In this document: one piece after another, positions 30,225 through 48,338 of the stretch
How positions within the stretch are numbered: the first letter of the stretch is position 1
Layout of the letters: each line of letters starts with the position of its first letter
Virus record (IMG/VR): IMGVR_UViG_3300035199_000716
Span: 1-62,311 of that record
From: a virus
DNA length: 62,311 nt
Reading direction: 5' to 3' (one strand)
The notes under the pieces: model-generated
Told to the model about the DNA's origin: nothing
Seen by the model: the letters and a program-made list of their open reading frames with translations, nothing else
Databases searched by the model: none
Translations under genes and position numbers: made by a program

Positions 30225-31845
30225 TGGCCATTACTCTAAACTTAAAAGCTTTGTCTTGTTCTGTCCACGCTAACAACTCTGGGTCATAAAAAGCAAACTT
30301 AATCGCATATTCATACCCCTGCTCGAGAATGCTCATATCTAAGTCAAAATAATTTCCAGATTTGTCAAAAGATAATCCAGTGCAATTGTGACTGCTAGTC
30401 CCGTGCGGAATTGCATCAAGGGCATCCCGAGTACGAATGACCCTGTAAGAAGCACTTATAATCGCTGTGGAGGGTACTACGGTGGTCGCCTTTGTGTATA
30501 CGGTGGGGTTCCAATTCTTTTCTCGAACAAACAAATTAAAGCGTGCAGTCTCTGTTCTTGTATATTTGTTTCTTAAATTTGTTATGTTAATAAAGTATTT
30601 GGGGATACGTACGTGGCTAAGGAATGAATTCGCTGACCCCGTTGTGATCGGTATTATGGAACCCGTGGCAAACTCTGTGGCGGACGCGTCACGGGAGGCG
30701 CCGCCGGGCTGGTTGGTCGAGCCAGTCCACCATACATCATAAAGCGTTTTAATGGAGTCAGTTGAAGCCGTGAGACCTACTGAAGCGGAGTATACGCCGG
30801 TTTCTACATATCCGCCGGTGATTGCATATTTCTCGTTGTAAAGTAGAAGCTTGGATCCGGAAGGTGCGACATTGCCGGCTGAACCCGAGTATAGGCTCAC
30901 CATAATGGAGCCAGTCGTACCAATAGCGGGAATGTTTCTCAGGCGCCCTCGCACATAATTGTATAAATACAATGTGTTTACGTTATCTTCTGCAAGACCT
31001 AGGGAGCTACTATAATAGAAGCCACCTCTGTCATCTCTCTTGGCTGAGTCCCAGCGAGCTTCAATCAGGGGGCGCCTATAAAAATACTGGGTCCCTCTTG
31101 CAAAAAATCTCTTGACGTAATAAGACGCCTCAATACCACCGGTAATGGGCAAAATACCACCAGTCTGCTTCGGTACATTATAATAGGTTTCATAAGAAGA
31201 AGATAGCATTATCCCAACGCCATAATTATTTATGTCGCCGGTGATCCAGTGCTCCACTAAGCCGGTTATGTCAACTTCTAAATCTTCCAAGCCGCTTTTA
31301 AAATCTTGTCTATACATCGGTGGTTTGGCGCGGGCATCAGAAGATGGATAGTCCCAATGAGTAGATGCGGTCAAATAATCTCCACCATAATCAGTCCAAG
31401 CAGTGGTGTTGGAGGCACTCATCCAATTAGAACCCGTCCCGTCTCGTGTGCTATCTTGGAAGTTTATCATGTCCATACCTGAACCTTCCTGCCAAGATCT
31501 CGATACCGCATGTATAGATAATGTATAGTTTTCGGGGACTGTTTGAGTGTGATAAGCGTTGGTCATCTTTAAATAAAAGTTTACGCTTCCAGAAGCCGGG
31601 ATTTTGCCTGCGGACCGGTCTGAGGAAACTGTGGCAATCGGAAATTTAATTAGGGCGCGTGAAAGCTCTTGAGATCCGAAGTTGGCCGAACTACTTTGTG
31701 GGTTTCGGCCCCATACAGAAAAAATCTGCACAATGTCAGCTTGCCCCATGTTTGAGCCGGTGGCGCGCTGGGCTACCTCTGGAGGACCCTTGAAAGCATT
31801 TGTAATAGTGTTATCTGCACTACCTGTGTATCTCCTAATCGCCAT
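30214..31845 (-). CDS. Tail/baseplate protein with DNRLRE-like carbohydrate-binding fold
   Basis: A 543-residue protein. The first 250 residues show the order of elements seen in DNRLRE/disaggregatase-type beta domains: an opening with A-D-N-T-I-T-N-A-F, L-S-I-H-A-V-S-R-S-W-Q-E-G-S-G, then V-D-I-T-G-L-V-E-H-W and Y-G-V-G-I-M-L-S-S. These domains bind polysaccharides. The remaining half is Ser/Thr-rich and beta-like. Its stop overlaps the giant protein's start by 11 nt and its own ATG overlaps the gp6-like stop by 1 nt, so it is translationally coupled in the baseplate set. Confidence 0.65.
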   Translation of the reverse strand: MAIRRYTGSADNTITNAFKGPPEVAQRATGSNMGQADIVQIFSVWGRNPQSSSANFGSQELSRALIKFPIATVSSDRSAGKIPASGSVNFYLKMTNAYHTQTVPENYTLSIHAVSRSWQEGSGMDMINFQDSTRDGTGSNWMSASNTTAWTDYGGDYLTASTHWDYPSSDARAKPPMYRQDFKSGLEDLEVDITGLVEHWITGDINNYGVGIMLSSSYETYYNVPKQTGGILPITGGIEASYYVKRFFARGTQYFYRRPLIEARWDSAKRDDRGGFYYSSSLGLAEDNVNTLYLYNYVRGRLRNIPAIGTTGSIMVSLYSGSAGNVAPSGSKLLLYNEKYAITGGYVETGVYSASVGLTASTDSIKTLYDVWWTGSTNQPGGASRDASATEFATGSIIPITTGSANSFLSHVRIPKYFINITNLRNKYTRTETARFNLFVREKNWNPTVYTKATTVVPSTAIISASYRVIRTRDALDAIPHGTSSHNCTGLSFDKSGNYFDLDMSILEQGYEYAIKFAFYDPELLAWTEQDKAFKFRVMANEY

Positions 31846-33641
31846 TACCTAACCTTCCCTATGATGTCTGTCTCTGGATATTTTAATTCTAAGATTGCAT
31901 TCTTCGGAACCACCACATAAGAGCCGTCAGAGGACAAGTTGTCGCTGATATCAATTGCGGCGGAAGAGTAGTTTCCCGAATTTTTGCCGACAACCTTGAC
32001 CTTGGTGACATCCAAAACACCTGATACTCCCTTCAATATTTCATAAATCTGACTGATATATATCGGTTCACCGATAAAGAATGGGGTAGAGAAGTGCGTT
32101 TTTAGAGCTTCGATGCAGTCATCCAGTGCTGTATATTTCTCAGCGGCCGCTTTTGGCTTAATAATAAACTCAACACCGAAGTTAAGAATATAAGGATCCA
32201 GTATATCAACAGTATCGTTAATCATTCTATAATTGTTTATCCAAGTTTTTAAATTATTTTTAATTGTTGAATTCGCTGCAATTAGTTTTCCGTTGGTGTC
32301 TTCCGAGACAACATACATATTTAGGTTTCTTTTTTGTGAATCCGGGTCGCGCTGGACCGAGACCCTTTTAATAGCACCATATTTAGAATGCATTCTGTAT
32401 GCTATGTTTTCGTAGTCGGCCTGTGTTACTGCTCTGTTCTGTGTTGGAAACGTATCGAATATTCTTTGCTTTACTTCTCCGGTGGAAGGGTACGTAACTA
32501 CTCCCACAATTGGCTGTTCATTGGTAACTTCTAGAGATGATATTATTGAGTTAACGTACGAGGAGTTCAAATCTTGTCTATTGCTAAACTCAAAGTTACT
32601 AGCATTTACAGAGTTCAAAGAACCAACTGCGACATTTGAATTTGAAGGACTGGTGGCCCTAAAGACAACTGTTAAAGTGGTATTCACTGGAACAATCCCA
32701 AATGATTCGTTTTGTGATATTCTTGTTGGGTCAAATGATAAGTCGGTTACATATTTCTTACCAAAAATATCTAGGGCTACATTTTGTGGATTGGCTACAA
32801 TATCAGAATTACCAGATTTTCCGCTTCCAAACTGCAATGTAACCTGATCCCTAGTGTGTTCGACAGTATATTTTCTAGATACCAAAAATGGCTTTATCAA
32901 AGACGGCACGTTGTCATCTTTAAAATTAGGGTTTATTATCTCTTTAAAAACCATATCTTGAGCTAAATAATCAACTTCAAAATATTGATTTCCCTCTGAG
33001 TCATACACGGAAATAACTTCTGACACATTGGGGGTCGTAAGTGTGGCTCGATAGAACCTTTCGAATGTACCCACCTCAACTGTTTCCGTAGAAAGCAGTC
33101 CAGACACGACATTGCCATAAGCTTTTACAGCATAATGTGTGGGCGCGCCAGTGGAAGAGTCGACTCTTGCAGCCACCGAAAGGTTTCTAGGATCGGAAAA
33201 ATCAATATTTTCTGTCAATATGAAGTTCTCGCCATTTTGAGATGAGAAAGAGGTACCTCTTTTCAAAATCGGTAGATATCTTGAATCTGTACCGAGACCC
33301 GCGCTGGATGCAGGAACAAGAATGAATACGGCAACCTGACCGTATGTTGAATCGCGGCCGGTGAACTTATAGCCTAGAGCACGACCATGACGCACCACAT
33401 TTCCAAACTGAAATGCGGTGTCAAGGAATGCTTCGTTAACATTATAGTCCAAATAGAAGGAGAGTTGATCTCCGATGTATGAAACAGCGTCGAGCATCAG
33501 TGAACCAAAAGAGGCCTCACTAAAGTCTTGAAAGCTGTCTGGGTAAAATCTTTCTGCGATGCCCATCAAATCGTCGCGAATTGTTTCAAAATCACGATGA
33601 GTATAGTCAATCGGCATTATTTTTTTCTGTATTTTAGGCAT
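31845..33641 (-). CDS. Baseplate wedge protein, gp6 / baseplate-J family
   Basis: A 598-residue protein of the T4 gp6/P2 gpJ family, which forms the inner ring of the contractile-tail baseplate. The N-terminus (PIDYTHRDFETIRDDL, then DFSEASFGSLMLDAVSYIGD and LSFYLDYNVNEAFLDTA) is the family's conserved opening. Further on, the region with FPTQNRAVTQADYENIAYRM is the characteristic J-core segment, followed by the C-terminal VxxxFxI-type strands. The length matches T4 gp6 (660) well. It follows the gp25-like gene by 16 nt, the usual order in contractile tails and related type VI systems. Confidence 0.92.
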   Translation of the reverse strand: MPKIQKKIMPIDYTHRDFETIRDDLMGIAERFYPDSFQDFSEASFGSLMLDAVSYIGDQLSFYLDYNVNEAFLDTAFQFGNVVRHGRALGYKFTGRDSTYGQVAVFILVPASSAGLGTDSRYLPILKRGTSFSSQNGENFILTENIDFSDPRNLSVAARVDSSTGAPTHYAVKAYGNVVSGLLSTETVEVGTFERFYRATLTTPNVSEVISVYDSEGNQYFEVDYLAQDMVFKEIINPNFKDDNVPSLIKPFLVSRKYTVEHTRDQVTLQFGSGKSGNSDIVANPQNVALDIFGKKYVTDLSFDPTRISQNESFGIVPVNTTLTVVFRATSPSNSNVAVGSLNSVNASNFEFSNRQDLNSSYVNSIISSLEVTNEQPIVGVVTYPSTGEVKQRIFDTFPTQNRAVTQADYENIAYRMHSKYGAIKRVSVQRDPDSQKRNLNMYVVSEDTNGKLIAANSTIKNNLKTWINNYRMINDTVDILDPYILNFGVEFIIKPKAAAEKYTALDDCIEALKTHFSTPFFIGEPIYISQIYEILKGVSGVLDVTKVKVVGKNSGNYSSAAIDISDNLSSDGSYVVVPKNAILELKYPETDIIGKVR

Positions 33642-33657
33642 TCAAAATTTCCTTACT

Positions 33658-34026
33658 TTAAATAGTAAACTCTAGCAAATCTGAGATATTTATGGACGGT
33701 ACCGAATATTTGATACTTATCTGTAGCGTGTTGAGATCAACGTGTTCGGTGATAAAATTAATTTCTTCAATTACAATTACGGGCAAGTATATTGATGTTT
33801 GTTCCATTATGTTGGCTTCAATATCGTCAAACGTACTCTGAGTGAACCCAGAAAAAAGATATGATTTAAGCCCGACACCAAAGCTTGGCTCCATAACTCT
33901 TTCGCCGCGCTCAGTTAACAGAAGCATCTTGAGATTCTGCTTTATAAGCGTGTGAAAGTCCTTAATCATGGTGAAGCCGTCGCCGCTATCTCTGGTAATC
34001 GGCAATTTAACCGCCAATGAAGCCAT
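33658..34026 (-). CDS. Baseplate wedge protein, gp25 / gpW family
   Basis: A 122-residue member of the gp25/gpW/TssE family that links the sheath's first ring to the baseplate. The diagnostic segment is LLLTERGERVMEPSFGVGL, containing the conserved E-P-x-F-G element, followed by the predicted helix and the two C-terminal strands (INFITEHVDLNTLQISI). Length is typical (T4 gp25 has 132 residues). It is followed directly by the gp6/J-like gene. Confidence 0.93.
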   Translation of the reverse strand: MASLAVKLPITRDSGDGFTMIKDFHTLIKQNLKMLLLTERGERVMEPSFGVGLKSYLFSGFTQSTFDDIEANIMEQTSIYLPVIVIEEINFITEHVDLNTLQISIKYSVPSINISDLLEFTI

Positions 34027-34047: not shown

Positions 34048-37000
34048 CTATGAATCTTTCTTTTTGCACATTTCACCGTTCTCATTAAACGGATTAGATT
34101 TTAATCTTCTTGTTTGCCACCATGGCAAAATTGCTCTAGAGGGGTCAATCTTGAACCTTTCTTTCATTTGCTGTACGTATTCTTTGGTAAGAGTACCCAT
34201 CTCTTCGTCGGCCATTGAGTCAAACTCCCGCGATCTATAGTGTACACGGAAAAGCCTCTTAATTGCAGACGCAGAATGCCTTAAGGCCTTCTTATCCCAG
34301 TTGTCCCAAGCCATGTGACTAAAAAGGCCGCCGGCTTTAAGGCGGTCGCCCTCGGCAGCCCAACCAGGCGCATATTTTAAGGTTGCCCCTTCGACCGTGG
34401 TAACAGTTTCTGTGCTCTCAAGGCCAAGCCAGTTTTCTCGGGTGACGTCGACGGACCCGAGTTCTAGCTCAGCATATGCTCCCGGCTTTATATCGGCACT
34501 CGAATTTGTCTCGGGATCAGACCATGCGACTTCATGGAAAAAGTCTCCATAGAGCGCGCCCTCGGCGACCGTTACTTCTCCAATAGATGGCATAAAGCCC
34601 ATATCTTGATAAATAGCCATTATTGATAACACCTTCTTGAAGGAAAATGCATAGTTCGTAACAAGTTTAAACTTCTGGTCTTCCTTGAGTTTTGCCAGCA
34701 AGCAATACAAGATCTTGCTATTGGCTTCAATACCTGTAAATGCGGTAACCGGAACATCTAATGCATCTATCTCTATGTTCGATATCGAATAGTCTGTACC
34801 ATCGATTGTCATACCGAAATCCAAACCATACCGCACACCCAGTTCGCCCTCGATGCCAATCTGGACATCCTCATCATTTGTTACAATTCTCATTGTTCCA
34901 GGGAAGCTTAATGATATGGGGCCACTACCAGCAGCCTTGACTTTGGCAACAGCAACGGCATTAGACAGCCTCTCGTTATCTACCTTAATATACTTATACA
35001 TGTAAAATGGTTGTTCGCTGCTTGGACCGGAAGAGGCGCCGCGGGCGCCGTCGGGGATATCTCCAAGTGCCGTGAACGTCACTTCCTGTGCGGCCTTGCC
35101 TTCCATACCTGCCTCTGGATCTGGGTAATCTTTCATCTGCACTTTTTCAACTCCCACGATTACTTTATTGGCGAATGGCCTTATTGCTTCGTGCTCTCCG
35201 TCGCTATGATATTCCCCAACCATATAGGTTGTGCCTCCATCTTGTTCATCTATATTTGCGTGATAATATCCAACATATGCAGAGCCATCCGGTAACGAGA
35301 ACTCGCCTCCATCTGTATAAAATGGCCCGGGCCACTCCCATCCAAGGCCGGCAGGATCAGGCTCTTCTTTCGTTGGAAGACCAGCAACAGCCTCTATCAC
35401 TGTGCCTTGAAGGTTGAGTTCGTTGTCGCCTAAAGCAGTAAAATTGGCCATGTAGTAATAGTCCAAGTCATATACTTCGGGGGCCATATCAAAATTTTCT
35501 AGGGTTTTTGAGTACTTGTTACCCATAAACTGCAGCTGTTCATTGACCAGCTCTTTAAGAATCAGCTTTGCGTCTTCCTGCGTTCTGTATATTGCTTCCA
35601 GATTTCTGCTTTCTCTGTAGCTTTTTAAGGTTTCAAACCAGCTAGCTTCGCCGCTGTACTTAGCGTTCATCAATTCATTACCATAAGGATAGTTAAACCT
35701 TTCTTGATAATCGTTTAGTCTTTCTAACGCATCCATCACGTGTTTTGGTACTTCTTCTTCCGCAATATCGCCGCTATCAATTCTGCGACCATATGTTTGT
35801 ACTGCCTGTTCCAAAAATGCAAACCAAAATTCATTATCTGAGAATGGGCTCCACAAGGACGTGGAGTCCCTGAAGTCTTCCTCCATGATTTCAACAACGT
35901 AAGAGGCATATATATTACTATAGTTATCCGGAAATTTGGGGGCAAACTTAGTAAACAGTGGGAGTCCCTTTATAAGATGGACGCTGGCATATACCCTAAT
36001 GGCCGCGGCAATAATCCCCTCGATTGTTGCCTTGGACTGTCGATGTAAAATTCTATTATATGGCCTTTCATCAACACAATCTGGATCTCCTCTAAGACGT
36101 ACGTCATCAGCCAGGGTCGGATATACCTCGCTTATTTTTGAAGCTATTTGATCAAAGTCCACAGCATTCGTTGAAGACGGATCGCACGGACTTAGTTCTG
36201 GAAACAGAACCTCAATCAAGCCTGAGTATCCGGCAGCTTTTCGGGGTCTAACATATATTGGTGGCTGCATATATGAGCCACCATATTGAGTTGGATTGAG
36301 GAAAAAGACTCTTGTATTTTGAGGGTGTGTTCCATTTTGTTCATTAATATACTGGTTTCTGCTCTTTCCTAATATCATGTCATCTTCTACTAATGGACGC
36401 TGGTCTGGGAGTTCTTCACCATTTGAATCATAATCTTTGACCGTTTTTTCAGAATATAAATCACCATTTTCATCCACATAATCAAAGTCAGTTATGTCCA
36501 GATCATCGAACGACATTCCATATTCCCAAGCTTTTGTGTTGCTTCCTATTTCTCTAGCAACAGCAGCAAATTGTGCTTCCATAAAGGCATCATATTTATC
36601 TTTGATGGTTGACTTACTTACTTTGGCATTGAACAAGTCATGCAACATATTAACTTGTGGGGAGTAGGGGTCTTGGCGCATAAAACTCTGACTTAAAGAT
36701 GGAAAGTTGTCTATTGATAAAAGTTCACCCTTATCAGGATCAGGGAAATATAAGGAGTCAAGGCCGTTGTCAACTGCTATAAACTCGGACTTTCTATGGC
36801 GCAGAATATCGTCTGTGTCCGACACAGTGGGGCCGGCGGAGGCTTTAGTCGCGGCGCCATCGCCGTTGTACCCGAAGGCATCTGGGGGTGGGGGATGGGT
36901 AGTGCTGGTGGTTGTTGCATTTTGATTGTAAAATTCAGTGAGGTATATTCTTACGTTATCATCTGGTCTGTTCGCATACGAGCCGGCCACCGAAGTTTCT

Positions 37001-40000
37001 ACCATGTCAGAAAAATATGCATTTACTCTAAACATATAACTCCAAGAGGAAGGCTTGAGCAACGGTGCATTTAAGCCCATACGATAGCCTCTGGAATTGT
37101 CTTTAAAATCAAGTGCGATATCTGGCTGATCTTTACGGGGCATTTTTATAAACCACAAGTTCTCTTGATCCCAATCTGGCGCCGTCCTTACATTATATCC
37201 CATGTCAGGCACATCTGTTAGCTCTACATCAGAAGTAGTGAAGAGGCTGTCGAACCCTAGGTTACTAAAGCTGACTGGCCACTTCTCTATTGCGCGCGGA
37301 GTATTGGTGCTTTCGAAGGCCATGGTCTCTTTAAGGTCCTCCGTTATTCTACCCAGCTTCAAACGCGAGTCTACTTCTAAACCTGCGGCCGCTCTATACT
37401 GATACATCAACCATTCAGCAACATATTTAGGATATGCGCCGCGTTGACTAGGAAGGCCAGCAACGGGAACACTCATAGCTTTCTCGACGGGGGCCGTGAG
37501 CATCCAACTGTTGTCTACATCTAAATAAAAGTCAACATAGTCTGAATCGCCTGCTACATCCACTTGATGCCTGGTAAATGGGTTACCCATCGTATCGGAT
37601 AGAACCATATTCAAGAAGCCCCATGAAGAGTCGACTCCGCCCCAGAGCCAGCCCATGAAACCGCCCGAACCAAGCATATCTCTTGCATATGCTTGCTGGA
37701 TCTTGTTAAGGTCTCCTTGAATGTTATTGTTGGCCGTGTTGATGGTACCCTCGGGCTCAAATGGCAAAATACCATTATTGCACCCCGGATCCGATTGAAG
37801 CGGTGGCATCTGCTCCATGACCGACGGACCAATTCCTTTCTGCATTAAGCTACTAACGGTGTCCAAGTCATCCAACATCGTGCCGCGCCAATTGTCAAAC
37901 ATCTCGTTACACTGTTCAGGAGTAGCGCGGCCTTCTAATAGTTGACACCTTAAAGCCTTGAAATTCTCCATTTGGTCTGGAGTGGCGCAAAGAGTCGGGT
38001 TTGCTGGGTCGAGGGCTGCCTCGGCGCCGAGAGTTTCCAGAGCCAAATCCATATCATCTCTTAACTGAGCCGGGATCAGGAAGCCAATATTTTCGAAGAA
38101 TCGACCGATAGATCGCTTATTTGGAAGTGCATCCCGGTATTCTGGATATCCATTTTCAACAATTTGGTCTGCAATTATCAGGAATGTTTCTGAAGGTTTG
38201 CCCAAAACCGCGGACGACATCTCGGCTTGTGTGGCTGCGGCCGACAAGTCTTCAGCAAATGTAAGGGCTCTTTCGGGATTTGTAAATGCTTGGCCACCAA
38301 CACCCAGGTTGGCTATCAACTGTACAACTGTATCTTCTACTTCTTGTGTGGGAGTTTCTGGCCCGCAGATTGAATCTTTAATAATATCTGTCAGAGTGGT
38401 GGTACCGGCTATCTGTGCTGGCAGTGACGCAACAAACTGTCCTGCAATTTCCAGGGCCTTACAGATGGCTTTACCAAGAAGCTCACATACCTTGACAATT
38501 ATCATTACTTGAAGTTTGAATATTAACTCACGGAGCTTTGTTTTCAAATATTCGAACAGTTTTCCCCATGGATCCACCACAATGGGGTACCACCAACCTG
38601 GCCACATCAAACGCGGCATCGTAATTTCGGCATTATTTCTACAAAATGGAAGTGTAATACTTTTTACGAAGTCATCGAGGCCTGGGTTAAACAATGGTGG
38701 TCTCGGGCAGTCTATCGATGTAATAAGGAACGATATGATTTGAGCACCAGGGAAATCGTTCAGCTTATCTAATAGGGCCAAATAGTTTTCTGAATATTCT
38801 TCCAACAATGCAAGGATATAGGCTTGAAAAATATTGTTCGGGTCAAGGCCCTGCTCTTTTGCCACCGCAGCCGCATCCAGGGACTTTGCAATAGTCCTTT
38901 TAGTTTCGCTTGCTTGATTTTCAGCCATCTTCTGCAGATTTCTTTCCATGGGTGATTCGATAGCCACGTCGTTGCCGCCAACCGGGTTTTCCTTGGCGCG
39001 GGCTTTCTGTGCTGCGACGAGTTCCGGGTCTTCCCAGGGCTTGGTGAACGAGACCTTTCCGAAGAACCTGTTTCCACTTTCTTTTTGCTCTGCCTTTTCT
39101 TTATCTTCAACCCTTGCGCGCTCTTCGGCGGTCATGCGCGACTTTTCGTCACTTGTGTATGTTCTGGTCCAGTCTTTGGTGGTTTTCCCCTCTTCTAGGT
39201 TTCTCCTAACCAGTTCATCAAGTTTCTTTTGTTTCTCGGGGGACAGGCCAACAAATAATTTTCCAAAATCGTCATAAGTCATCGCAGAAAGAGCGTTCTT
39301 TAACATTATACCCAGAGCCTTTTCCAGAGACAAACCCTTGGTCAGACACTCAACTGTCGACACTAAAAGGTCAAACATCCCGCAAACTTTAATTCTTTCA
39401 AACGACATAGCCGAAATTTGATCTTCTAAATCTCCTACCGACTGAGCCTCTCCTTTTACACCCATCATCATTCTCGTACAAAAATGAGCGAATACCTGAT
39501 CACGGGGGTCGATCTCTTTATTTGCTTGCATAAGTGCTGCTGACCACATGGTGGTTTTTTTCTTGGGTTCTTTCTTGTTTTTCTTAGGTGGGGCTGGTGG
39601 GGCTTTCTTGCCCTGACGTGGCTCTGGTGCGGGGGCGCCACCCTGTGCACCTACGCCTTGGCCTACTTCCTTTTTATCTTCGTTAACTGCATCTTTATCT
39701 GTTTGGCATAGGCTAGCATGAAATTCATAGGCTATGGCGTCTCCGATAGTAAACATTTGATCTAAAACGAATTGGCCTAATTGTTTTCCTTCGTTAGCTA
39801 AAGCATTTGCAACACATGTGGTGGTACTGGTTTCGCCGCTGGGCATTATTTGGCCGGCGCCGGGGCCGACGGTGCGAAGCTTGGGATATGTATACTTCTG
39901 AACCATTTCAAGCCATGGTTGCTCTTGGCGCGCCTTTAGGTCTGAGGCTATCTCCGATAGTTTCATAAAATACGCGACCGCAGTGGAATCTCGCCAACCG

Positions 40001-41004
40001 GGCATCGTGGCTAGCCCCTCAACTCTATCCTTACCAAACTCTATGGGCATCTCATTACACATGTCGGTCCAAATTGTTATTTTCTTAAGTTTATATTCAC
40101 CCGTCACTGTGAATTCTATGTGTTCAACATTTTGAGATGTTAGACCCCAGGTGCCCGTATTTGGTATATTGTACCCTCGCTCATTGAGCCAGCTATCTAA
40201 CTCCGTTTGCACGATACTTACTTGCCCATACATATCAAATGGTCCCGCATCTCCGTAATCTTCTAAGTTAAATATCCTTCCTGAATCCTTAAATACCAAG
40301 TTCGAGCTTTCTAGCATTCGATATACCTTTAAGTATCTGTTCCACAAATGAAGGCCTTTTCGTACTGTTATTTGGTCTTTTACCATATCTCCAACCGCAT
40401 ATTTAACGGTTTGATCACCGAGTTCGGCCTCATCATCTTCTTGTTCAGGTGGTGCGTCTGGTAGATCTTCAAGCACGCTATATTCTACTGAGTATAACAG
40501 CTGGACATAGGAGCCCGGATTTGGTGCTAAATAATATTCGGTTTTTTCAAGAGCATCGCTAATTTTTTGAACCGACTCGTCTGATTTATCCTTCCCTTTC
40601 CAATCTAAAAGCGCGCGAATGGCGCCCTTTCTTGGCTCTCCTTTACGATGAGGAACTGACTGTAGCCAGTCTGGCGGCAGTGAGTGATCGGCATTATTGT
40701 CCCACTCGGAGGCATAGTGTTCCCATATATTATCCAACGCTTCGGCGGCGGCCTTTTTGGTTGCTCCCGCTTTGTAACCCAAAGTCTTTTCTTTGGTCAT
40801 ATATGAAATTTGATATTTACATAACTTTTCATTTAAAAAGGGTTGTGATTGGTTCCTAGCTTTCCAATCTGGGACAGAGGCGTTTGGATTGGGGGAGCAC
40901 GGTAAACATGTATTAACTCTTGGTTTTGCCGGTTCTGGGCATACATCTGGCAACATATCCCCATTTGCGTCTTGCCACTTTAAAAATTTTGATTCTTCAG
41001 CCAT
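34048..41004 (-). CDS. Very large baseplate-region structural protein
   Basis: A 2318-residue protein of unknown specific role between the tip proteins and gp25. The N-terminus has a cysteine cluster (CPEP, CLPCSPNP, within residues 22-40). Residues about 262-300 (VQTELDSWLNERGYN, then TGTWG) resemble a peptidoglycan-binding type 1 repeat. Residues about 440-520 are Lys/Pro/Gln-rich linker. Around 840-890 there is a long hydrophobic helix region (LQVMIIVKVCELLGKAICKALE) that could be buried helix or membrane-active. The remainder is mixed alpha/beta. Location suggests a hub or wedge scaffold, possibly with cell-wall contact; this is inference. Confidence 0.6.
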   Translation of the reverse strand: MAEESKFLKWQDANGDMLPDVCPEPAKPRVNTCLPCSPNPNASVPDWKARNQSQPFLNEKLCKYQISYMTKEKTLGYKAGATKKAAAEALDNIWEHYASEWDNNADHSLPPDWLQSVPHRKGEPRKGAIRALLDWKGKDKSDESVQKISDALEKTEYYLAPNPGSYVQLLYSVEYSVLEDLPDAPPEQEDDEAELGDQTVKYAVGDMVKDQITVRKGLHLWNRYLKVYRMLESSNLVFKDSGRIFNLEDYGDAGPFDMYGQVSIVQTELDSWLNERGYNIPNTGTWGLTSQNVEHIEFTVTGEYKLKKITIWTDMCNEMPIEFGKDRVEGLATMPGWRDSTAVAYFMKLSEIASDLKARQEQPWLEMVQKYTYPKLRTVGPGAGQIMPSGETSTTTCVANALANEGKQLGQFVLDQMFTIGDAIAYEFHASLCQTDKDAVNEDKKEVGQGVGAQGGAPAPEPRQGKKAPPAPPKKNKKEPKKKTTMWSAALMQANKEIDPRDQVFAHFCTRMMMGVKGEAQSVGDLEDQISAMSFERIKVCGMFDLLVSTVECLTKGLSLEKALGIMLKNALSAMTYDDFGKLFVGLSPEKQKKLDELVRRNLEEGKTTKDWTRTYTSDEKSRMTAEERARVEDKEKAEQKESGNRFFGKVSFTKPWEDPELVAAQKARAKENPVGGNDVAIESPMERNLQKMAENQASETKRTIAKSLDAAAVAKEQGLDPNNIFQAYILALLEEYSENYLALLDKLNDFPGAQIISFLITSIDCPRPPLFNPGLDDFVKSITLPFCRNNAEITMPRLMWPGWWYPIVVDPWGKLFEYLKTKLRELIFKLQVMIIVKVCELLGKAICKALEIAGQFVASLPAQIAGTTTLTDIIKDSICGPETPTQEVEDTVVQLIANLGVGGQAFTNPERALTFAEDLSAAATQAEMSSAVLGKPSETFLIIADQIVENGYPEYRDALPNKRSIGRFFENIGFLIPAQLRDDMDLALETLGAEAALDPANPTLCATPDQMENFKALRCQLLEGRATPEQCNEMFDNWRGTMLDDLDTVSSLMQKGIGPSVMEQMPPLQSDPGCNNGILPFEPEGTINTANNNIQGDLNKIQQAYARDMLGSGGFMGWLWGGVDSSWGFLNMVLSDTMGNPFTRHQVDVAGDSDYVDFYLDVDNSWMLTAPVEKAMSVPVAGLPSQRGAYPKYVAEWLMYQYRAAAGLEVDSRLKLGRITEDLKETMAFESTNTPRAIEKWPVSFSNLGFDSLFTTSDVELTDVPDMGYNVRTAPDWDQENLWFIKMPRKDQPDIALDFKDNSRGYRMGLNAPLLKPSSWSYMFRVNAYFSDMVETSVAGSYANRPDDNVRIYLTEFYNQNATTTSTTHPPPPDAFGYNGDGAATKASAGPTVSDTDDILRHRKSEFIAVDNGLDSLYFPDPDKGELLSIDNFPSLSQSFMRQDPYSPQVNMLHDLFNAKVSKSTIKDKYDAFMEAQFAAVAREIGSNTKAWEYGMSFDDLDITDFDYVDENGDLYSEKTVKDYDSNGEELPDQRPLVEDDMILGKSRNQYINEQNGTHPQNTRVFFLNPTQYGGSYMQPPIYVRPRKAAGYSGLIEVLFPELSPCDPSSTNAVDFDQIASKISEVYPTLADDVRLRGDPDCVDERPYNRILHRQSKATIEGIIAAAIRVYASVHLIKGLPLFTKFAPKFPDNYSNIYASYVVEIMEEDFRDSTSLWSPFSDNEFWFAFLEQAVQTYGRRIDSGDIAEEEVPKHVMDALERLNDYQERFNYPYGNELMNAKYSGEASWFETLKSYRESRNLEAIYRTQEDAKLILKELVNEQLQFMGNKYSKTLENFDMAPEVYDLDYYYMANFTALGDNELNLQGTVIEAVAGLPTKEEPDPAGLGWEWPGPFYTDGGEFSLPDGSAYVGYYHANIDEQDGGTTYMVGEYHSDGEHEAIRPFANKVIVGVEKVQMKDYPDPEAGMEGKAAQEVTFTALGDIPDGARGASSGPSSEQPFYMYKYIKVDNERLSNAVAVAKVKAAGSGPISLSFPGTMRIVTNDEDVQIGIEGELGVRYGLDFGMTIDGTDYSISNIEIDALDVPVTAFTGIEANSKILYCLLAKLKEDQKFKLVTNYAFSFKKVLSIMAIYQDMGFMPSIGEVTVAEGALYGDFFHEVAWSDPETNSSADIKPGAYAELELGSVDVTRENWLGLESTETVTTVEGATLKYAPGWAAEGDRLKAGGLFSHMAWDNWDKKALRHSASAIKRLFRVHYRSREFDSMADEEMGTLTKEYVQQMKERFKIDPSRAILPWWQTRRLKSNPFNENGEMCKKKDS

Positions 41005-41015
41005 TTCTTGTTGTC

Positions 41016-42140
41016 CTAATTTGTTTTAACATTTCTGCTCCATATACACTTATATCCGAATGGACTTAGGTGATTATATTCCCAGATATTTAATTCTCCA
41101 CGAAGATTATAGATAGATAAATTTCCTTGTATCATACTTTTTAGATTAACGACTGCCGCAGGAATGGAAAGGCCAGGAAGAGAGCCCACCGTGCCTCCAA
41201 GTTGTTCGAGTGCCTCGGCTAGGTTATTGCATACCCCCATGGTCTTGTCTAAAAGTGCCCCTAGCTCGCGGAAGGCGTCTCTAGAATTATATCCTAGTGC
41301 CACACCTTGCAAACCGGGGACTATCTCTGTGCGGGGTGGGTCGAGACGTTTCATCTTTCTATTTGTAACCTTATTACCCGCGATGAACTCGATGGCGGGT
41401 GCGGGCTGAACTATCTTTCCGCCATGGGATGTTGGTTCACCGGCAGTCCAGCCCTCGACGCCCTGAGATGGTCCAGTAACTATTTTAACGGACTCGCGCC
41501 CTATAATCCTTACGGCATCGGCTTTTACTGCTACTGCTGAGCGTGCAATTGCTTGTGGAGACACACCACGCGCAAGACCAAAATAATGATCGATGTCAGC
41601 CAATTGAGAGATATAGATACGTGCAGCATCTGCCGCAAAATCATTGTTAATCCATGATGGGACTTTCGGGCCCTTGCCCTCTCTAGCAGAGGCATGGCGG
41701 CCGACCACTAAATCAATTGAGGCAGCCTTGTCAGCACCCCAGGCGCCATAGCCAGACGCAAGACTATCTGGTCGATCAGTTCCTAATACAATCCATGCTC
41801 CCATGCTAGTCATGATTTTCTCATTTTGAGCTTTTACATAATTAACACCACCGGTTGAGCCAACAATATTATCAGATTTGAGAATTGTATGATAAAGGCC
41901 GCTCTTTGGGGGGAGCGACTGCGCATCTTTAATGCGAGGATCGATACCGCGGGCCTGTCCGCCGGCGCTACCTACAACCCCTACCCTAGCGCGTTCTTCA
42001 GCAATCTCTGCTGCCGTGTCCGGATCCTGAGTTGCAGTAATAGCACCTTGGGTTTCTTTTATGTATTCAACTGCTGCTGAGGCTTGCTCTGCATTAGAAG
42101 GACCTTTTAGTTTTTGTGGGTCGTCGTTTCCTGTTCCCAT
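41016..42140 (-). CDS. Putative tail-tip / baseplate structural protein
   Basis: A 374-residue protein. The N-terminal 70 residues are Ala/Glu-rich and helical. The centre (about 190-225) contains KADAVRIIGRESVKIVTG, a strand-turn pattern reminiscent of the beta-prism repeats of gp5/VgrG spike needles. The C-terminus holds helices (LGALLDKTMGVCNNLAEAL) and a final beta segment with a cysteine. It follows the three tip-like paralogues after a 62-nt gap, the longest among the structural genes, and has a strong AGGAG ribosome site. Spike or hub role is inferred. Confidence 0.55.
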   Translation of the reverse strand: MGTGNDDPQKLKGPSNAEQASAAVEYIKETQGAITATQDPDTAAEIAEERARVGVVGSAGGQARGIDPRIKDAQSLPPKSGLYHTILKSDNIVGSTGGVNYVKAQNEKIMTSMGAWIVLGTDRPDSLASGYGAWGADKAASIDLVVGRHASAREGKGPKVPSWINNDFAADAARIYISQLADIDHYFGLARGVSPQAIARSAVAVKADAVRIIGRESVKIVTGPSQGVEGWTAGEPTSHGGKIVQPAPAIEFIAGNKVTNRKMKRLDPPRTEIVPGLQGVALGYNSRDAFRELGALLDKTMGVCNNLAEALEQLGGTVGSLPGLSIPAAVVNLKSMIQGNLSIYNLRGELNIWEYNHLSPFGYKCIWSRNVKTN

Positions 42141-42202: not shown

Positions 42203-43570
42203 TTATCCTGCCTCATACGAGACAATCGTGCCACTAGAATCAAGTTTTACCCACTCTTTACTTCCACCCGACGTCGATGCCGCGGCCTCGGTAGCCACAA
42301 GAGTGCCGAGGAGACCCTTAGCCAGGTTGGCGGGGTCGAGGATGGGATCGCGGGCGAACCAAGACCATCCTGGGTGTTTTCCTTGGGTGGTGTTGTCATA
42401 AACGGTCTGTGTTGATGGCGGGGCTGCTGTGGAATTATTGTACAGCGTCACAGCTTTGTCCCAATTCGCTGCTTTTCCTTGCATTTTGCTTAAATCCTTA
42501 ATTCTCTCTCTCTTATCACTAGGGCTAAGCCACCTTAATGTGTGGAGTTTTGCAAAATCAATTCCATTATCAATGGTCGTAAAATGTAATTTTTTTCCAG
42601 CTTCGTCTTTGTCCCCTCTCTTAGATATGGTTTCAGAAACGAACTTCACACTATTTTCAGTGCTGGCAAATGCAGCAAACCACCGGTTTGTTTCTGCTCT
42701 ATTTCCAGAACCACCGGCGCCTTCCGTTGAAGGAACGGCGCATTTAATATAGCTGCGGCCTGGGGCGCCCCACTTGGCGCCGTGATCCGCCATAATACCA
42801 AAATGATTATAATTGAAGCCACCAATCATACTTCCTGCTGGTTGTTCTGTGATGGCCATGGCTATAATACTCTTCGCAACACTGGCGTTTGCTACGTTAG
42901 CTTTAACTATATCAGCTAGCGCGGCCAATGATATTTTAGTCTGTCGTTTTTCTGGGGCACATGTTGTGTATGACGCAGTACTAGTATCTTTGAGTGGCAC
43001 CGTCTGTCCCGGCGCTGCAGCTATTGTCCCTGGTGTTGGGGAACCCCATTCACCCACAAGGCCAACTAAGCTTGCACATTCGGCGCTGCCGGAGGTAGGA
43101 TCTTCTTTACTGGAAATGCTTAAAAACCTACCATATTCAAGATTGTATATTTCTCTGCTCTTTTCTAATTCGACTAGGACAATATCGCCGCGGGAAACCG
43201 GGTCAACTTCGACCACGTTTGTGCTAATAAATGTTGTGTGTAAAGCGATTACCCTATATGCCGCACTATCGTCCGGAGTAAATGATGGATCACACGGGTC
43301 CGGAATAAATGAATGTGGTGAGTTAGCACCTACAATCCGAGCTTTAAAGGCATATCTTTCTTTTCCGGGGGCACCGGTTGACCCACCATCAATGGCCATG
43401 GCCTCGGCTGATGATAGTGGAAACATGTCCGTTAGTGCCCGGGCATAAAACTTAGTCTTTCCAGCATAGGTGTCGCCCTGAAAGGCGCGGCGGAAGGCCT
43501 TGCCATATAGATCTATTGCTCCCATGTTATCTGTAAATATTGTCCAGTCTTGTAGTTCTCTATTTGACAT
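42203..43570 (-). CDS. Tail-tip-like protein with glucosaminidase-like C-terminal domain
   Basis: A 455-residue protein. Residues 1-175 are the domain shared with the next two upstream genes (W-T-I-F-T-D-N-M-G-A, M-A-I-D-G-G-S-T-G, N-S-P-H-S-F-I-P-D-P-C-D-P, L-H-T-T-F, V-S-R-G-D-I-V-L-V-E), a beta-rich unit that could be a gp5/VgrG-like OB fold. After a Pro/Ala/Thr linker, residues about 215-350 look like a glucosaminidase-type wall hydrolase: MAITEQPAGSMIGGFNYNHF aligns with the family's E-S-G-x-G...N-L-F-G-I-K pattern, making E242 the likely catalytic acid, and RWFAAFASTENSVKF fits its later helix. A role in piercing peptidoglycan at infection is inferred. Confidence 0.7.
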   Translation of the reverse strand: MSNRELQDWTIFTDNMGAIDLYGKAFRRAFQGDTYAGKTKFYARALTDMFPLSSAEAMAIDGGSTGAPGKERYAFKARIVGANSPHSFIPDPCDPSFTPDDSAAYRVIALHTTFISTNVVEVDPVSRGDIVLVELEKSREIYNLEYGRFLSISSKEDPTSGSAECASLVGLVGEWGSPTPGTIAAAPGQTVPLKDTSTASYTTCAPEKRQTKISLAALADIVKANVANASVAKSIIAMAITEQPAGSMIGGFNYNHFGIMADHGAKWGAPGRSYIKCAVPSTEGAGGSGNRAETNRWFAAFASTENSVKFVSETISKRGDKDEAGKKLHFTTIDNGIDFAKLHTLRWLSPSDKRERIKDLSKMQGKAANWDKAVTLYNNSTAAPPSTQTVYDNTTQGKHPGWSWFARDPILDPANLAKGLLGTLVATEAAASTSGGSKEWVKLDSSGTIVSYEAG

Positions 43571-43577
43571 AAGTTGT

Positions 43578-44903
43578 TTATCCTATTGTAATGCCCTTGG
43601 TAGCTAATAATGCCACTGCTTCCGGGTTGGCTCTGATGGAATTTCTAGCATTATTAATGGCTGCGGCCACCTCTTCTGCAGACCTATGTGCTGCATTTTT
43701 TCCGGCGCGTAAATTCATATATGCTGTAGATCCGCGAGGGACCGTTTGCATGTTATATCTCTTGCTAGTTCTAAGACTGTTATATTTCCCGTCGAGCCAC
43801 GCGCCGGGGGCCGGCATTGGCAGCGATGCCCACTCGAAAGCAATCTCAAATGCCGCCAAACATTCTTGATCATGTATACCCAATATATAGCCTCCTAACC
43901 ATTTGCGCCGCCCCATCATCAAATAGGCCCCAACCGCATTTTGTACAGTTGGTGAAAAAACTGTACTATCCGAAATACCCGCTGCCCTAGTGCTGCTTTT
44001 AAATGTAGAGGGAATCCACTGCATTTTTCCTACAGCCATGACACGGCCGGCTGCCTGCAGGCCTTTAATTTCTCCGACAGTCATTTCCGATATTGGCTTG
44101 CCAAACATTGTTTTACACTTCGAGCGCGGCGTATCGCCGGCGTTACCGCGGTTACATGAATCATAGCCACCCTCTTTTGCTCCAATAAAATCGAAGAGAG
44201 GTTTTAGGGCTTGATATATGATCCCCCATTCTCTATACGACAAACTCGGAATTGTTGGGCGCGGTACCGCAGCAAACGAACATTGAGTCTGAGTGTACGG
44301 TACCGGGCCCGAAGCTCCATCTTTGCCAACTGGCGCAATGGTCTGCGCTGAGCCGGCGTGGTTGGTGGGTCCTCCCCAGTTTCCTACAAGGTTTACAAGG
44401 CTGGAACATTCTGCTGTGGCTGAGCCGGATGTTGGGGCTTCATGAGAACTAACACTTACAAACCTACCATACTCTAAATCATATGAATGGTCGCTTCTAT
44501 CTACTTCAACCACAACAATGTCTCCCCGTGTTACATTCTCACCGGAATCTGCTGTATTACTTAAAAAGGTAGTGTGTAAAGCGATCTGTCTATATGTTGC
44601 ATTTTCATCTATCAAAAGCGACGGATCGCACGGATCCGGAATAAATGAATGTGGTGAGTTCTCTCCTATTATTCTTGCTTTAAAGCCATACCTTGCACTA
44701 CCATTTCCACCAGTCGATCCACCATCGATGGCCATAACTTCGCTTGTAGACAACTCAAACATATCAGTTAGGGCCCGGGCTTTAAACCGTGTACGAGCCG
44801 TGTAAGAGTCATACCCCATACTTCTTCGTAATGTTGTCCCAAAAAGATCAAGGGCGCCCATATCGTCGCTAAATGTTGACCAATCAATTTTTTCTCTAGA
44901 CAT
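43578..44903 (-). CDS. Tail-tip-like protein with lysozyme-like C-terminal domain
   Basis: A 441-residue protein. Residues 1-175 are the shared tip domain. Residues about 222-370 resemble phage muramidases: FIGAKEGGYDSCNRGNAG, with E244 as likely catalytic acid, SEMTVGEIKGLQ, and GRVMAVGKMQWIPSTF, the usual A-x-G-x-x-Q-x-x-P-S-T element. It likely cuts the glycan strands of peptidoglycan. The frame continues 13 codons further upstream, but ATG 44903 is chosen because GGAGGTG sits just ahead of it, it lies 2 nt after the previous stop, and its start aligns with both paralogues. Confidence 0.78.
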   Translation of the reverse strand: MSREKIDWSTFSDDMGALDLFGTTLRRSMGYDSYTARTRFKARALTDMFELSTSEVMAIDGGSTGGNGSARYGFKARIIGENSPHSFIPDPCDPSLLIDENATYRQIALHTTFLSNTADSGENVTRGDIVVVEVDRSDHSYDLEYGRFVSVSSHEAPTSGSATAECSSLVNLVGNWGGPTNHAGSAQTIAPVGKDGASGPVPYTQTQCSFAAVPRPTIPSLSYREWGIIYQALKPLFDFIGAKEGGYDSCNRGNAGDTPRSKCKTMFGKPISEMTVGEIKGLQAAGRVMAVGKMQWIPSTFKSSTRAAGISDSTVFSPTVQNAVGAYLMMGRRKWLGGYILGIHDQECLAAFEIAFEWASLPMPAPGAWLDGKYNSLRTSKRYNMQTVPRGSTAYMNLRAGKNAAHRSAEEVAAAINNARNSIRANPEAVALLATKGITIG

Positions 44904-44905
44904 TC

Positions 44906-46369
44906 TTAAGCACCTCCACTCTTCTTCCACCGCCATCTCCACTTAGTTTTTTCCTTATTGGTGTACTCCCAGTAGCCTTTCTCTCGCATTTGCTCCCATT
45001 GGGGGTCGCCAGCGGCCAGTGTAGGGGATACCACATACACAAACTGGAAGCGTGCCTTTTTACAGGCCGCACAAGATGTGGCGCGGGTTCCGGCTGCGCA
45101 GAATTCATCGGCTGGGTAAAAGGCGTCTAAATATGCCACGTAGCCCAGGTCACCACTACTACATATATATTTTTTCCAACTATTGAAACGTGTAGCGTAG
45201 TCCCACAAGGCTTCCTTACCGCCAATGTTCGGTATGCCGCGGCCAGCGCCTCGGTTTTCTTTTTGGATCCATGCCGCCACAACAAAACCTGTTCGATCAG
45301 CACCGTGAGTACAGTGTACTAAAGTATTTCCCTCGTCAAACCACTTATTACAGTCTGAGACACTCCTAGTGTAGCCTTTTCCGCGCTTGAAACCAGCATG
45401 GGCACTAATTTTCTTAACCTGAACTGCTGGGTTGATGTATTTGGCGAATTCTTCTTCTAAATCTATACCGACGCAAAGACCAGTTTGAGAGTCGTAGCTA
45501 TATTTTAAGTCTCCCCCACTAGAGCCATTGAGTCTTATAATCTTGTTGATCCCGTGTGTCTCTATGAAAGTTCTCAACTCTCCAAGATCAGGTTGTTGAT
45601 ACCTCCAATTTCCATTGCCAAACATTTCAGCCTGACTACTTTTATCAAACGCCTTTTTCTGAACTGATGAAAAAAATCTTCTCGTTTCTGCGGTTGCCTT
45701 GCTTTGGCTGCCACACCTCGTTTTACTACGGTCGAGGCCGGCCCTAGGGCTGTCAGGAGAATATAACTCGCCAGGCGGGACTGGTGGGCCGCCGCTACGA
45801 ATGGCTGGACCACCAATATTAAATGGCTGATGTGTTATTTCACCGAACAAGCTTACCAAGGCAGAACACTGATCACTAGAGCCAGATGTGGGATCTTCTA
45901 CGTTAATTAGCTCCTCAAAGGTTCCATATTTTAAATCATATGATTGGCCAGATCTCCGTAATTTAACCAAAACAACATCACCTCTTGTAACCGGGGTTGC
46001 TTTTGTTGTCGACGTCGACAAGAATGTAGTGTGCAAATCAATAACCCTCCAAGTTTCCCCCGCATTCGACGACCATGTTGGATCGCATGGGTTTGGAAGA
46101 AGCCAATGTGGTGAGTTCTCCCCCACGATACGACCTTTAAAAGCTAACCGGGCTGCTGCTCCGCCGGCTGGATCGGTTGAGCCGCCATCAATTGCCATTG
46201 CTTCACTGGAGGCCAGTTCGTATGTATCCGAGAGTGCTATTGCCTTAAAGGTATCTTTATCGCTATATTTCGCCGGTGCCATACCCCAGCGAATCATGTG
46301 ACCAACTAGATCAAGTGCATCTTCATTGTCTGTGAATGCAGTCCAATCGTATAGCTCTTTATTCCCCAC
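44906..46369 (-). CDS. Tail-tip-like protein with protein-tyrosine-phosphatase-like domain
   Basis: A 487-residue protein. Residues 1-176 are the tip domain shared with the two following genes. Residues about 230-420 look like a dual-specificity/tyrosine phosphatase: DLGELRTFIETHGINKIIRL is the usual first helix-strand, and VHCTHGADRTG contains the full HCxxGxxRT signature with C353 as nucleophile and R359 as phosphate binder. A C-terminal extension has a CAAC pair (433-436) and a Trp/Lys-rich end. Translation begins at a GTG that overlaps the upstream gene by 11 nt. The substrate could be host protein, lipid, sugar or nucleotide phosphate; sequence alone does not say. Confidence 0.75.
   Translation of the reverse strand: MGNKELYDWTAFTDNEDALDLVGHMIRWGMAPAKYSDKDTFKAIALSDTYELASSEAMAIDGGSTDPAGGAAARLAFKGRIVGENSPHWLLPNPCDPTWSSNAGETWRVIDLHTTFLSTSTTKATPVTRGDVVLVKLRRSGQSYDLKYGTFEELINVEDPTSGSSDQCSALVSLFGEITHQPFNIGGPAIRSGGPPVPPGELYSPDSPRAGLDRSKTRCGSQSKATAETRRFFSSVQKKAFDKSSQAEMFGNGNWRYQQPDLGELRTFIETHGINKIIRLNGSSGGDLKYSYDSQTGLCVGIDLEEEFAKYINPAVQVKKISAHAGFKRGKGYTRSVSDCNKWFDEGNTLVHCTHGADRTGFVVAAWIQKENRGAGRGIPNIGGKEALWDYATRFNSWKKYICSSGDLGYVAYLDAFYPADEFCAAGTRATSCAACKKARFQFVYVVSPTLAAGDPQWEQMREKGYWEYTNKEKTKWRWRWKKSGGA
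44911..44917 (-). promoter_or_regulatory. Strong ribosome site fixing the start of the lysozyme-like tip gene
   Basis: GGAGGTG on the minus strand, within the end of the upstream gene and seven bases before ATG 44903. It supports that start over the longer frame opening at 44942. Confidence 0.75.
45110..45682 (-). other. Tyrosine-phosphatase-like domain
   Basis: Residues about 230-420 of the 487-residue tip protein. The catalytic loop is encoded near 45293-45316; cysteine 353 is the codon at 45311-45313. Flanking helices follow the order expected for DSP-type enzymes (an opening strand I-N-K-I-I-R-L, then the P-loop, then the helix T-G-F-V-V-A-A-W-I). The general-acid aspartate cannot be assigned with confidence. 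Confidence 0.75.
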
Positions 46370-46667
46370 CTTCGAGTTCTCCGGAAACCTGAATCATATC
46401 AAAGAGTTGATTCTTGTCTTCGTCAGAAAGCTCGATGGATACATTTTGATTTTTTTGCTGCAACGATATCAGTTTAACCAACTGCTCATTTGAGCGCTGC
46501 ATTGTCTCAACGTGTTTGGCTGCGACCGGACTTAGGCTTCTATTTTGTTCAGCATCCATGGCTATTTGATTTGCAATTTCATTTAAAAACTCCTGGGCGG
46601 ATTTTCTATCGTTACGTATGTTTTCCAAGGCCTCATCAATTAAACCGCTTAGATTATTTTTCTTCAT
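46359..46667 (-). CDS. Small helical protein, function unknown
   Basis: A 102-residue, charged, helical protein (LIDEALENIRNDRKSAQEFL; later a Gln/Ser-rich helix and an acidic end). ATG 46667 is preferred over an upstream in-frame ATG at 46685, because it forms an ATGA overlap with the sigma-factor stop and has GGAG just ahead. It couples translation of the late sigma factor to that of the tip proteins. No known family. Confidence 0.6.
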   Translation of the reverse strand: MKKNNLSGLIDEALENIRNDRKSAQEFLNEIANQIAMDAEQNRSLSPVAAKHVETMQRSNEQLVKLISLQQKNQNVSIELSDEDKNQLFDMIQVSGELEGGE

Positions 46668-47374
46668 AAAGCTCCGTTTTCCCAATTTTGTCTAAAGAAT
46701 GAGTATTTCTTTCTAAACTTTTTAAGAGAATTTACGATCTGTTTTGTATTTAAGCCCGTGATCTCTCTCAAGTATAGATAAATAGCTTTCTTATTAAAAA
46801 TTTCTATATCCTCCTTTGATTCGAAAAGTACAACAATCGCTTTATACACTTTTAGATCGTTCTCTTTCATCTGGGATGTGTCCCACGATTTTATTTCTTC
46901 GTAAAACCGAGTCCAAAACTCTTCTTCTTCGCGGTTTGATACGTATGATTCAGTTGTCGACAGATATTCCTCTTCGTATGATTTGGAAATATTGTCATAA
47001 TCAACTTCACGGCGGTTTCTCTTTTGTTGTTTTTTAACTTTATGAATAAACCAATTCTTTGTGATTACCGAAAAATACGAAAATGCTTTTGACCCCTTGC
47101 TTGGATCAAACTTATCCAAAACGGTCATTAGCCATATCTTGCATTCGTCTCGCAGATAATCAATATTTGGTAAGTTTGTAAACTTATAAGTAAAGACGAT
47201 CTTGTCAACCATCTCGTTAAAAGCTGGCTGGATCCAGTTAATGTATAGTTCGGTCCTCTCGCGTTTACAAATTGTGTTTGTATAAGCAATTATTGCGTTT
47301 TCGTGGTCCTTCGTAAAATAATGATTTTTTTTACGTCTCTTCACCGGTTTCGGTTTCTGTTTCAATATTGTCAA
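46664..47374 (-). CDS. Late-transcription sigma factor, T4 gp55-like
   Basis: A protein of about 236 residues that should replace the host sigma factor for late genes. HYFTKDHENAIIAY and the region with FDPSKGSKAFSYFSVITKNW match the gp55/sigma region 2 layout (core binding and -10 recognition). The basic stretch KVKKQQKRNRREV follows, and the C-terminal half is helical. The frame opens with TTG at 47374, which has GGAAG seven bases ahead; a GTG at 47344 is the alternative. It overlaps the membrane-protein gene by 44 nt if TTG is used. The sliding clamp and co-activator used by T4 late transcription are not in the window. Confidence 0.82.
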   Translation of the reverse strand: MTILKQKPKPVKRRKKNHYFTKDHENAIIAYTNTICKRERTELYINWIQPAFNEMVDKIVFTYKFTNLPNIDYLRDECKIWLMTVLDKFDPSKGSKAFSYFSVITKNWFIHKVKKQQKRNRREVDYDNISKSYEEEYLSTTESYVSNREEEEFWTRFYEEIKSWDTSQMKENDLKVYKAIVVLFESKEDIEIFNKKAIYLYLREITGLNTKQIVNSLKKFRKKYSFFRQNWENGAL

Positions 47375-48140: not shown

Positions 48141-48338
48141 TTATATTTTTTCTAGGTGTTCAATACCTAGTGACATAGTGTCTTTGTGTTTGTTTCTGTA
48201 TACCTCGTATACAAAGTATTTGTTTTTTTCATATCTATATTCTTTTATTCCCGTTATTAGGCCTAGGCCGGAGTCTTTTACAAGACAGTCATCATATACA
48301 GCCTGCCATTTAACAAGATCGCCTATTTTATGGTTCAT
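48141..48338 (-). CDS. Small SH3-like beta protein, function unknown
   Basis: A 65-residue protein (HKIGDLVKW, then [25 protein letters not shown]) with the strand order of a small SH3-like barrel, similar in layout to the 89-residue protein at 5025-5294. Its ATG overlaps the GDP-mannose-dehydratase stop as ATGA, so translation is coupled to the sugar genes. Function unknown. Confidence 0.6.

Follow-up and report, generated by a model that had tools for sequence, protein, structure and literature searches.

The wall hydrolase of the phage T4 tail tip, gp5, lies beside the needle, with an OB domain and a lysozyme in gp5* and a β-helix in gp5C. In the type VI secretion system (T6SS) of V. cholerae, the spike is a VgrG heterotrimer with effector domains on two of its members, and VgrG2, which bears no extension, is still needed and is the most important of the three for secretion (PMC8668125). 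In Aeromonas, a comparable need was traced to multiple effectors and not to the heterotrimer as such (PMC8668125), and VgrG1 and VgrG2 of Serratia do not mix (PMC4924876). Domain mosaicism, in which a conserved part is combined with swapped domains, is already known in phage tail and lysis proteins (PMC10684548).

The locus described here resembles T4 in having a likely tail-tip wall hydrolase beside a needle-like protein and in the T4-type baseplate set common to both (gp25, gp6 and the late sigma factor); unlike in T4, the enzyme carrier and the needle-like protein each have a gene of their own, there can be as many as three different carriers, their enzymes are exchangeable, and no sequence homology to gp5 is detectable in the carriers. 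The spike proteins VgrG1, VgrG2 and VgrG3 of V. cholerae are likewise paralogues, of which some end in effector domains and one does not (PMC8668125); in contrast to them, the present set would belong to a phage tail, occupies three tandem genes at one locus, and bears predicted wall hydrolases and a predicted phosphatase. The hub protein gp15 of Anabaena myophage A-1(L) also brings several wall-degrading domains to one tail tip, but fuses them in one homotrimeric hub chain (PMC10966104), whereas here the domains are distributed over three chains. Unlike in general phage mosaicism, exchange at this locus takes place within slot-specific, co-existing paralogues of limited copy number.

The DNA examined (hereafter the window, meaning the whole stretch analysed) is a 62,311-base fragment, an IMG/VR-type virus record with 43% G+C, from a marine virus that infects bacteria. 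It contains T4-type baseplate genes (gp25-like and gp6-like), a gp55-like late sigma gene and replication genes. Three tandem minus-strand genes, which we call carriers and number as slots 1–3 in order of transcription, sit between the late sigma gene and the baseplate genes. Slot 1 starts with GTG, and for slot 2 comparison with relatives favoured ATG at 44903 over GTG at 44942. The locus is organised as follows:

46664..47374, minus strand: late sigma factor, T4 gp55-like (phrog_234, E = 4e-5), the upstream landmark of the locus
46359..46685, minus strand: ORF of ~100 aa, always directly 5′ of the carriers
44906..46369, minus strand: slot 1 carrier, 487 aa, N-domain plus predicted CX5R phosphatase payload
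43578..44903, minus strand: slot 2 carrier, 441 aa, N-domain plus lysozyme-like payload
42203..43570, minus strand: slot 3 carrier, 455 aa, N-domain plus probable glucosaminidase payload
41016..42140, minus strand: needle-like protein V, always directly 3′ of the carriers
34048..41004, minus strand: protein B, 2318 aa here and ~2100–2300 aa in relatives, always downstream of V
33658..34026, minus strand: baseplate wedge protein, gp25-like (phrog_261, E = 4e-18)
31845..33641, minus strand: baseplate wedge protein, gp6-like (phrog_6, E = 3e-19)

Protein B, conserved beside the needle-like gene in all relatives, had no match in Pfam or PHROGs. Along the locus, divergence from two relatives, L005 and L006, jumps at position 46359, where the ~100-aa ORF gives way to slot 1: the genes upstream of this point (sigma factor, ~100-aa ORF and sugar genes) mostly show 85–98% identity, and those that follow it (the three carriers, V and B) ~45–67%, as if the baseplate module had been exchanged or diversified en bloc. 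Nucleotide-sugar epimerase-type genes at 48335–51487 adjoin the late sigma gene, and comparable sugar-gene clusters occupy the same place in relatives. Elsewhere in the window, a large adhesin or fibre is probably encoded at 19077–30224, where the 3715-aa product contains two LamG-like (Laminin_G_3) stretches.

The first-pass annotation of this DNA had described about 175 shared N-terminal residues in the three genes, marked by a set of common motifs and followed by completely divergent C-terminal parts, and all of this was borne out. The shared N-domains are located at:

45836..46369, minus strand: slot 1 N-domain, residues 1–178
44378..44903, minus strand: slot 2 N-domain
43033..43570, minus strand: slot 3 N-domain

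Identity ranged from 50 to 62% over ~177 residues (slots 2 and 3, 62% over 179 aa, E = 3e-77; slots 1 and 3, 51% over 177 aa, E = 5e-55; slots 1 and 2, 50%), the named motifs were present in all three, and BLAST found no match among the C-terminal parts. An alignment of N-domains from nine relatives had at least 52 invariant columns out of ~180. A chance likeness is excluded. Two cysteines, Cys93 and Cys165 (both in slot 3 numbering), stand out: one is near-invariant (66 of 67 sequences) and the other is present in all 52 sequences that have its column, with gaps in 15, making a disulphide in the carrier domain possible. Searches with the slot 1 N-domain and one single-carrier N-domain found no such domain in annotated phages, and none was found in bacterial and archaeal genomes.

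To place the set among its relatives, we gathered further carriers with an N-domain profile, and a profile of V yielded several hundred relatives, from which the best 80 per scan were taken in four scans. The order late sigma, ~100-aa ORF, one to three carriers, V and B was constant in the 71 distinct loci that were complete from sigma to V. Sixty of these have one carrier, five have two and five have three; in the remaining one (L097) only one gene occupies this place, and it is too divergent for recognition as a carrier; no locus among the 71 has more than three. One relative (L036) has an additional 335-aa gene, not recognisable as a carrier, between sigma and its single carrier. According to the trees, the carriers multiplied on about six separate occasions (the window clade, L062, L070/L083, L071/L072, L078 and L247); two of these expansions attained three carriers, L247 doing so independently of the window clade. 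In L247, a 203-residue carrier without an enzyme lies beside an amidase carrier and a third carrier with an enzyme of no assigned family, which by eye resembles slot 3 of L010; L070 has a 222-residue carrier without payload. The retention of carriers without an enzyme argues for a structural job of the carrier domain, and these cases, standing beside loaded carriers, compare with the extension-less yet needed VgrG2 (PMC8668125).

Within the window clade (the window/L004, L005, L006 and L010), the N-domain tree groups sequences by slot, with support of 100/98 for slot 1 and 80/77 for slot 3; slot 2 was recovered as monophyletic without support (36/0). A tree constrained to unite the three carriers of a genome was rejected in each of the four genomes (p = 3e-7, 2e-5, 4e-82 and 4e-3). 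Payloads do not track slots in this clade. Slot 2 ends in M23 or in one of three distinct lysozyme-like domains, slot 3 in VanY, a probable glucosaminidase or a domain without assignment, and the VanY in slot 1 of L010 is homologous to the slot 3 payload of L005 and L006. The window phosphatase is closer to the phosphatases of L071/L072, an independent lineage (36–37% identity, E ~1e-51), than to its own slot 1 orthologues (26%, E = 1e-8). The two N-domains of L078 are 90% identical, their payloads are unrelated (lysozyme versus M23), and nucleotide identity drops to background near residue 190, which we read as direct evidence of payload replacement on a conserved carrier. The relatives thus strongly uphold the duplication and domain swapping proposed in the first-pass annotation, with N-domains grouping slot-wise and payloads exchanged.

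One to three carriers, never more, in long-lived slot-specific versions, are what a three-fold symmetric spike allows; such a spike could be a homotrimer, a mixed trimer or a 1:1:1 heterotrimer. The ceiling of three across about six expansions could be chance in part. Fixed slots, the ceiling and the payload-less carriers, all brought to light by the relatives, fit the mixed spikes that the first-pass annotation had raised as a possibility and that we infer. Alternatively, three separate homotrimers might compete for one spike position, each particle bearing one enzyme type within a mixed, bet-hedging population. A homotrimer must work in most relatives, since a single carrier suffices in 60 of the 71 loci, and the two Serratia T6SS VgrGs form no heterotrimers (PMC4924876). 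This arrangement is nonetheless unlikely in our judgement: it sits poorly with fixed, long-separated slots in constant order and a copy number never above three, its payload-less carriers would yield useless particles, and the phosphatase is never the sole payload of a locus.

The payload features of the window carriers are:

45287..45316, minus strand: slot 1 phosphatase P-loop HCTHGADRTG, residues 352–361, with the predicted catalytic Cys and the P-loop Asp
43611..44198, minus strand: slot 2 lysozyme-like payload, residues 236–431 (phrog_37890, E = 8.6e-24)
42611..42877, minus strand: slot 3 probable glucosaminidase, residues 232–320 (Pfam Glucosaminidase, E = 0.017, a weak match)

The lysozyme-like domain proposed earlier for slot 2 gained further matches, to the lysozyme domains of cyanophage structural proteins (E = 4e-21), and by its profile matches the payload is a homologue of lysozyme domains from tail or hub proteins. 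Cyanophage 'late control gene D' proteins were considered as full relatives and set aside, as only the lysozyme domain is held in common; a profile search gave no convincing match to the N-domain in their loci. The glucosaminidase-like reading of slot 3 stood in part: the Pfam match reaches 16.2 bits, below the curated cut-off of 30.2 (GH73), and the structural model lacks confidence in this region, so that we call the payload only a probable glucosaminidase. A fold search of BFVD with the slot 3 model returned nothing informative. Among 57 distinct single-carrier payloads, the Pfam matches were wall hydrolases: VanY/M15 (21 for VanY), Amidase_2 (7), M23 (4), DUF2272 (3), muramidase (1) and Phage_lysozyme2 (1).

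Several of these payload families are also found in endolysins, and the carriers could in principle be soluble endolysins or other intracellular enzymes for lysis or takeover instead of virion proteins. We consider this very improbable: the genes always lie in the baseplate module, the attachment domain is conserved and persists even where no enzyme follows it, and payloads match tail lysozyme profiles. The carriers are encoded within the baseplate gene module, with gp25 and gp6 in the window and constant synteny across relatives. The earlier proposal of a tail-tip role is therefore well supported by context, with late sigma, gp25 and gp6 nearby and the payloads of L005 slot 2 and of L078 matching 'baseplate hub subunit and tail lysozyme'.

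The same proposal had suggested comparing the shared domain with the OB folds of gp5 and VgrG; a weak OB-fold signal emerged, and the profile match to T4 gp5 failed (hhalign, E = 0.33, not significant). Comparisons by hhalign with RB11-B gp5 and other hub proteins, and with proteins of the cultured relatives immuto and Mel-JY01, gave nothing significant, and a 67-sequence profile found no relevant match in the PDB. The N-domain model, of low overall confidence, shows a helix and 5–6 strands, and its top Foldseek matches were mostly OB-folds (S12, RPA, SSB), all with E ≥ 0.015. On our preferred reading the N-domain is probably an OB-fold, and we suggest that it works like gp5*/VgrG, a likeness of role and not a claim of family membership. 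A triple β-helix in the same chain, as in the gp5/VgrG type, was not found; the carriers end in enzymes and V is separately encoded. V contains the strand-rich motif SAIGIKADGVRIIGREGVKIVTG and reads like a triple-stranded β-helix spike or needle. It had no profile match to gp5C, and the best comparison of V with gp5C and the spike-like proteins of immuto and Mel-JY01 was not significant (E = 0.009), though in the expected register. In Microcystis phage Mel-JY01 and Flavobacterium phage immuto, the late-sigma homologue is followed by one protein and then gp25 and gp6; by eye this protein reads like OB plus β-helix, with profile comparisons not significant.

These observations also bear on whether the carriers are tail enzymes of the baseplate, each kind at its own position off the central spike (in the hub ring, the wedge or the fibre root). 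Myophage A-1(L) gives a precedent, its hub and not its spike bearing lysozyme, endoglucanase and peptidase domains (PMC10966104), and homology to gp5/VgrG is not detectable in the carriers. With carriers constantly adjoining the needle-like V, and the corresponding Mel-JY01/immuto protein reading by eye as OB plus β-helix, we hold off-spike positions to be fairly unlikely.

The slot 1 payload had been called phosphatase-like in the first-pass annotation. Its match to Pfam DSPc (E = 4e-4) lies under the curated cut-off, and its AlphaFold model upheld the fold by matching the solved PTP-fold enzymes Siw14, PFA-DSP1, Tk-PTP, TpbA and PTPMT1 in the PDB (E = 3e-4 to 4e-3, with matches scored as near certain). 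The CX5R P-loop, kept in all five carrier phosphatases, and the modelled PTP fold place the payload in the Cys-based PTP superfamily. Also invariant in the five is the P-loop Asp, with no conserved WPD-type Asp. Myotubularins use this Asp as their general acid, and in MptpB it is essential for catalysis (PMC3091653), so that an active slot 1 enzyme is plausible. The payload shares CX5R, the PTP fold and the HCxxGxDR motif with these enzymes (PMC3091653), and the fold with Siw14/PFA-DSP; unlike myotubularins, MptpB and Siw14, it rides a phage tail-type carrier.

The phosphatase motif occurs in five of the ten multi-carrier loci, every time in the first gene, and is absent from the other 61 (Fisher p = 2e-5, a value that ignores shared ancestry and comes from two lineages). 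An IMG/VR scan located the domain on carriers solely in those multi-carrier loci, and off carriers as stand-alone proteins or fused to other domains. The closest proteins by sequence to the slot 1 phosphatase are phage proteins with peptidoglycan-binding-like and lysozyme-like domains: a peptidoglycan-binding-like segment was present in 7 of 32 distinct non-carrier phosphatase proteins, several of them also with a lysozyme-like domain (assigned by eye). Such fusions suggest that the substrate lies in the cell wall or close to it. A role as stand-alone host-takeover effector is less favoured, because the phosphatase shares its carrier type with wall hydrolases and recurs beside wall-binding-like domains. 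One candidate carrier, L296, was dropped as a stand-alone phosphatase gene. Fusions of PTP-fold, peptidoglycan-binding-like and lysozyme-like domains in other phages (L305:6912-8555, L313, L320, L325 and L297) possibly form a new wall-associated phosphatase family, and four long phage proteins (in L331, L329, L330 and L334) appear by eye to have a GDSL/SGNH-like start (IIIGDS) before the same phosphatase domain.

Our preferred reading, to which we give an even chance, is that the carriers are subunits of a gp5*/VgrG-like spike, a heterotrimer in which the sockets are fixed and the enzymes can be exchanged, with V a separate needle and a homotrimer in most relatives. The N-domain would be the socket-binding carrier domain of the tail spike, in the role that the OB domain has in T4 gp5 or VgrG, and V a needle encoded by its own gene. 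In most relatives, the product of a single gene would form a homotrimeric spike and so bear the same wall hydrolase in three copies. In the window clade, the gene would have been triplicated and its copies specialised into three position-specific subunits, each particle carrying a 1:1:1 heterotrimer with phosphatase, lysozyme and probable glucosaminidase. Tail contraction would drive the spike into the periplasm, where lysozyme and probable glucosaminidase would cut the wall glycan and the phosphatase would strip phosphate off a wall-associated or periplasmic target. A stricter form, which we hold more tentatively and somewhat short of even, makes the heterotrimer obligate, with three fixed sockets whose enzymes change in the course of evolution, a wall-associated PTP-fold phosphatase in the virion and enzyme-less structural subunits, and the single-carrier relatives keeping the ancestral homotrimer.

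A phage locus that combines carriers fixed by slot, enzymes open to exchange, no more than three carriers and a phosphatase linked to the wall appears to be new within the literature searched. To our knowledge, a virion phosphatase is known nowhere else, and a narrow literature query found no phosphatase described as a cell-envelope penetration tool; our reading, if true, would suggest one. Slot-specific N-domains could serve as orthogonal subunits for engineered contractile injection devices. If the reading holds, these phages would possess a naturally modular spike with three tools, relatives with one, two or three carriers would be available for comparison, and the evolution of asymmetry in a three-fold symmetric tail tip would become directly testable.
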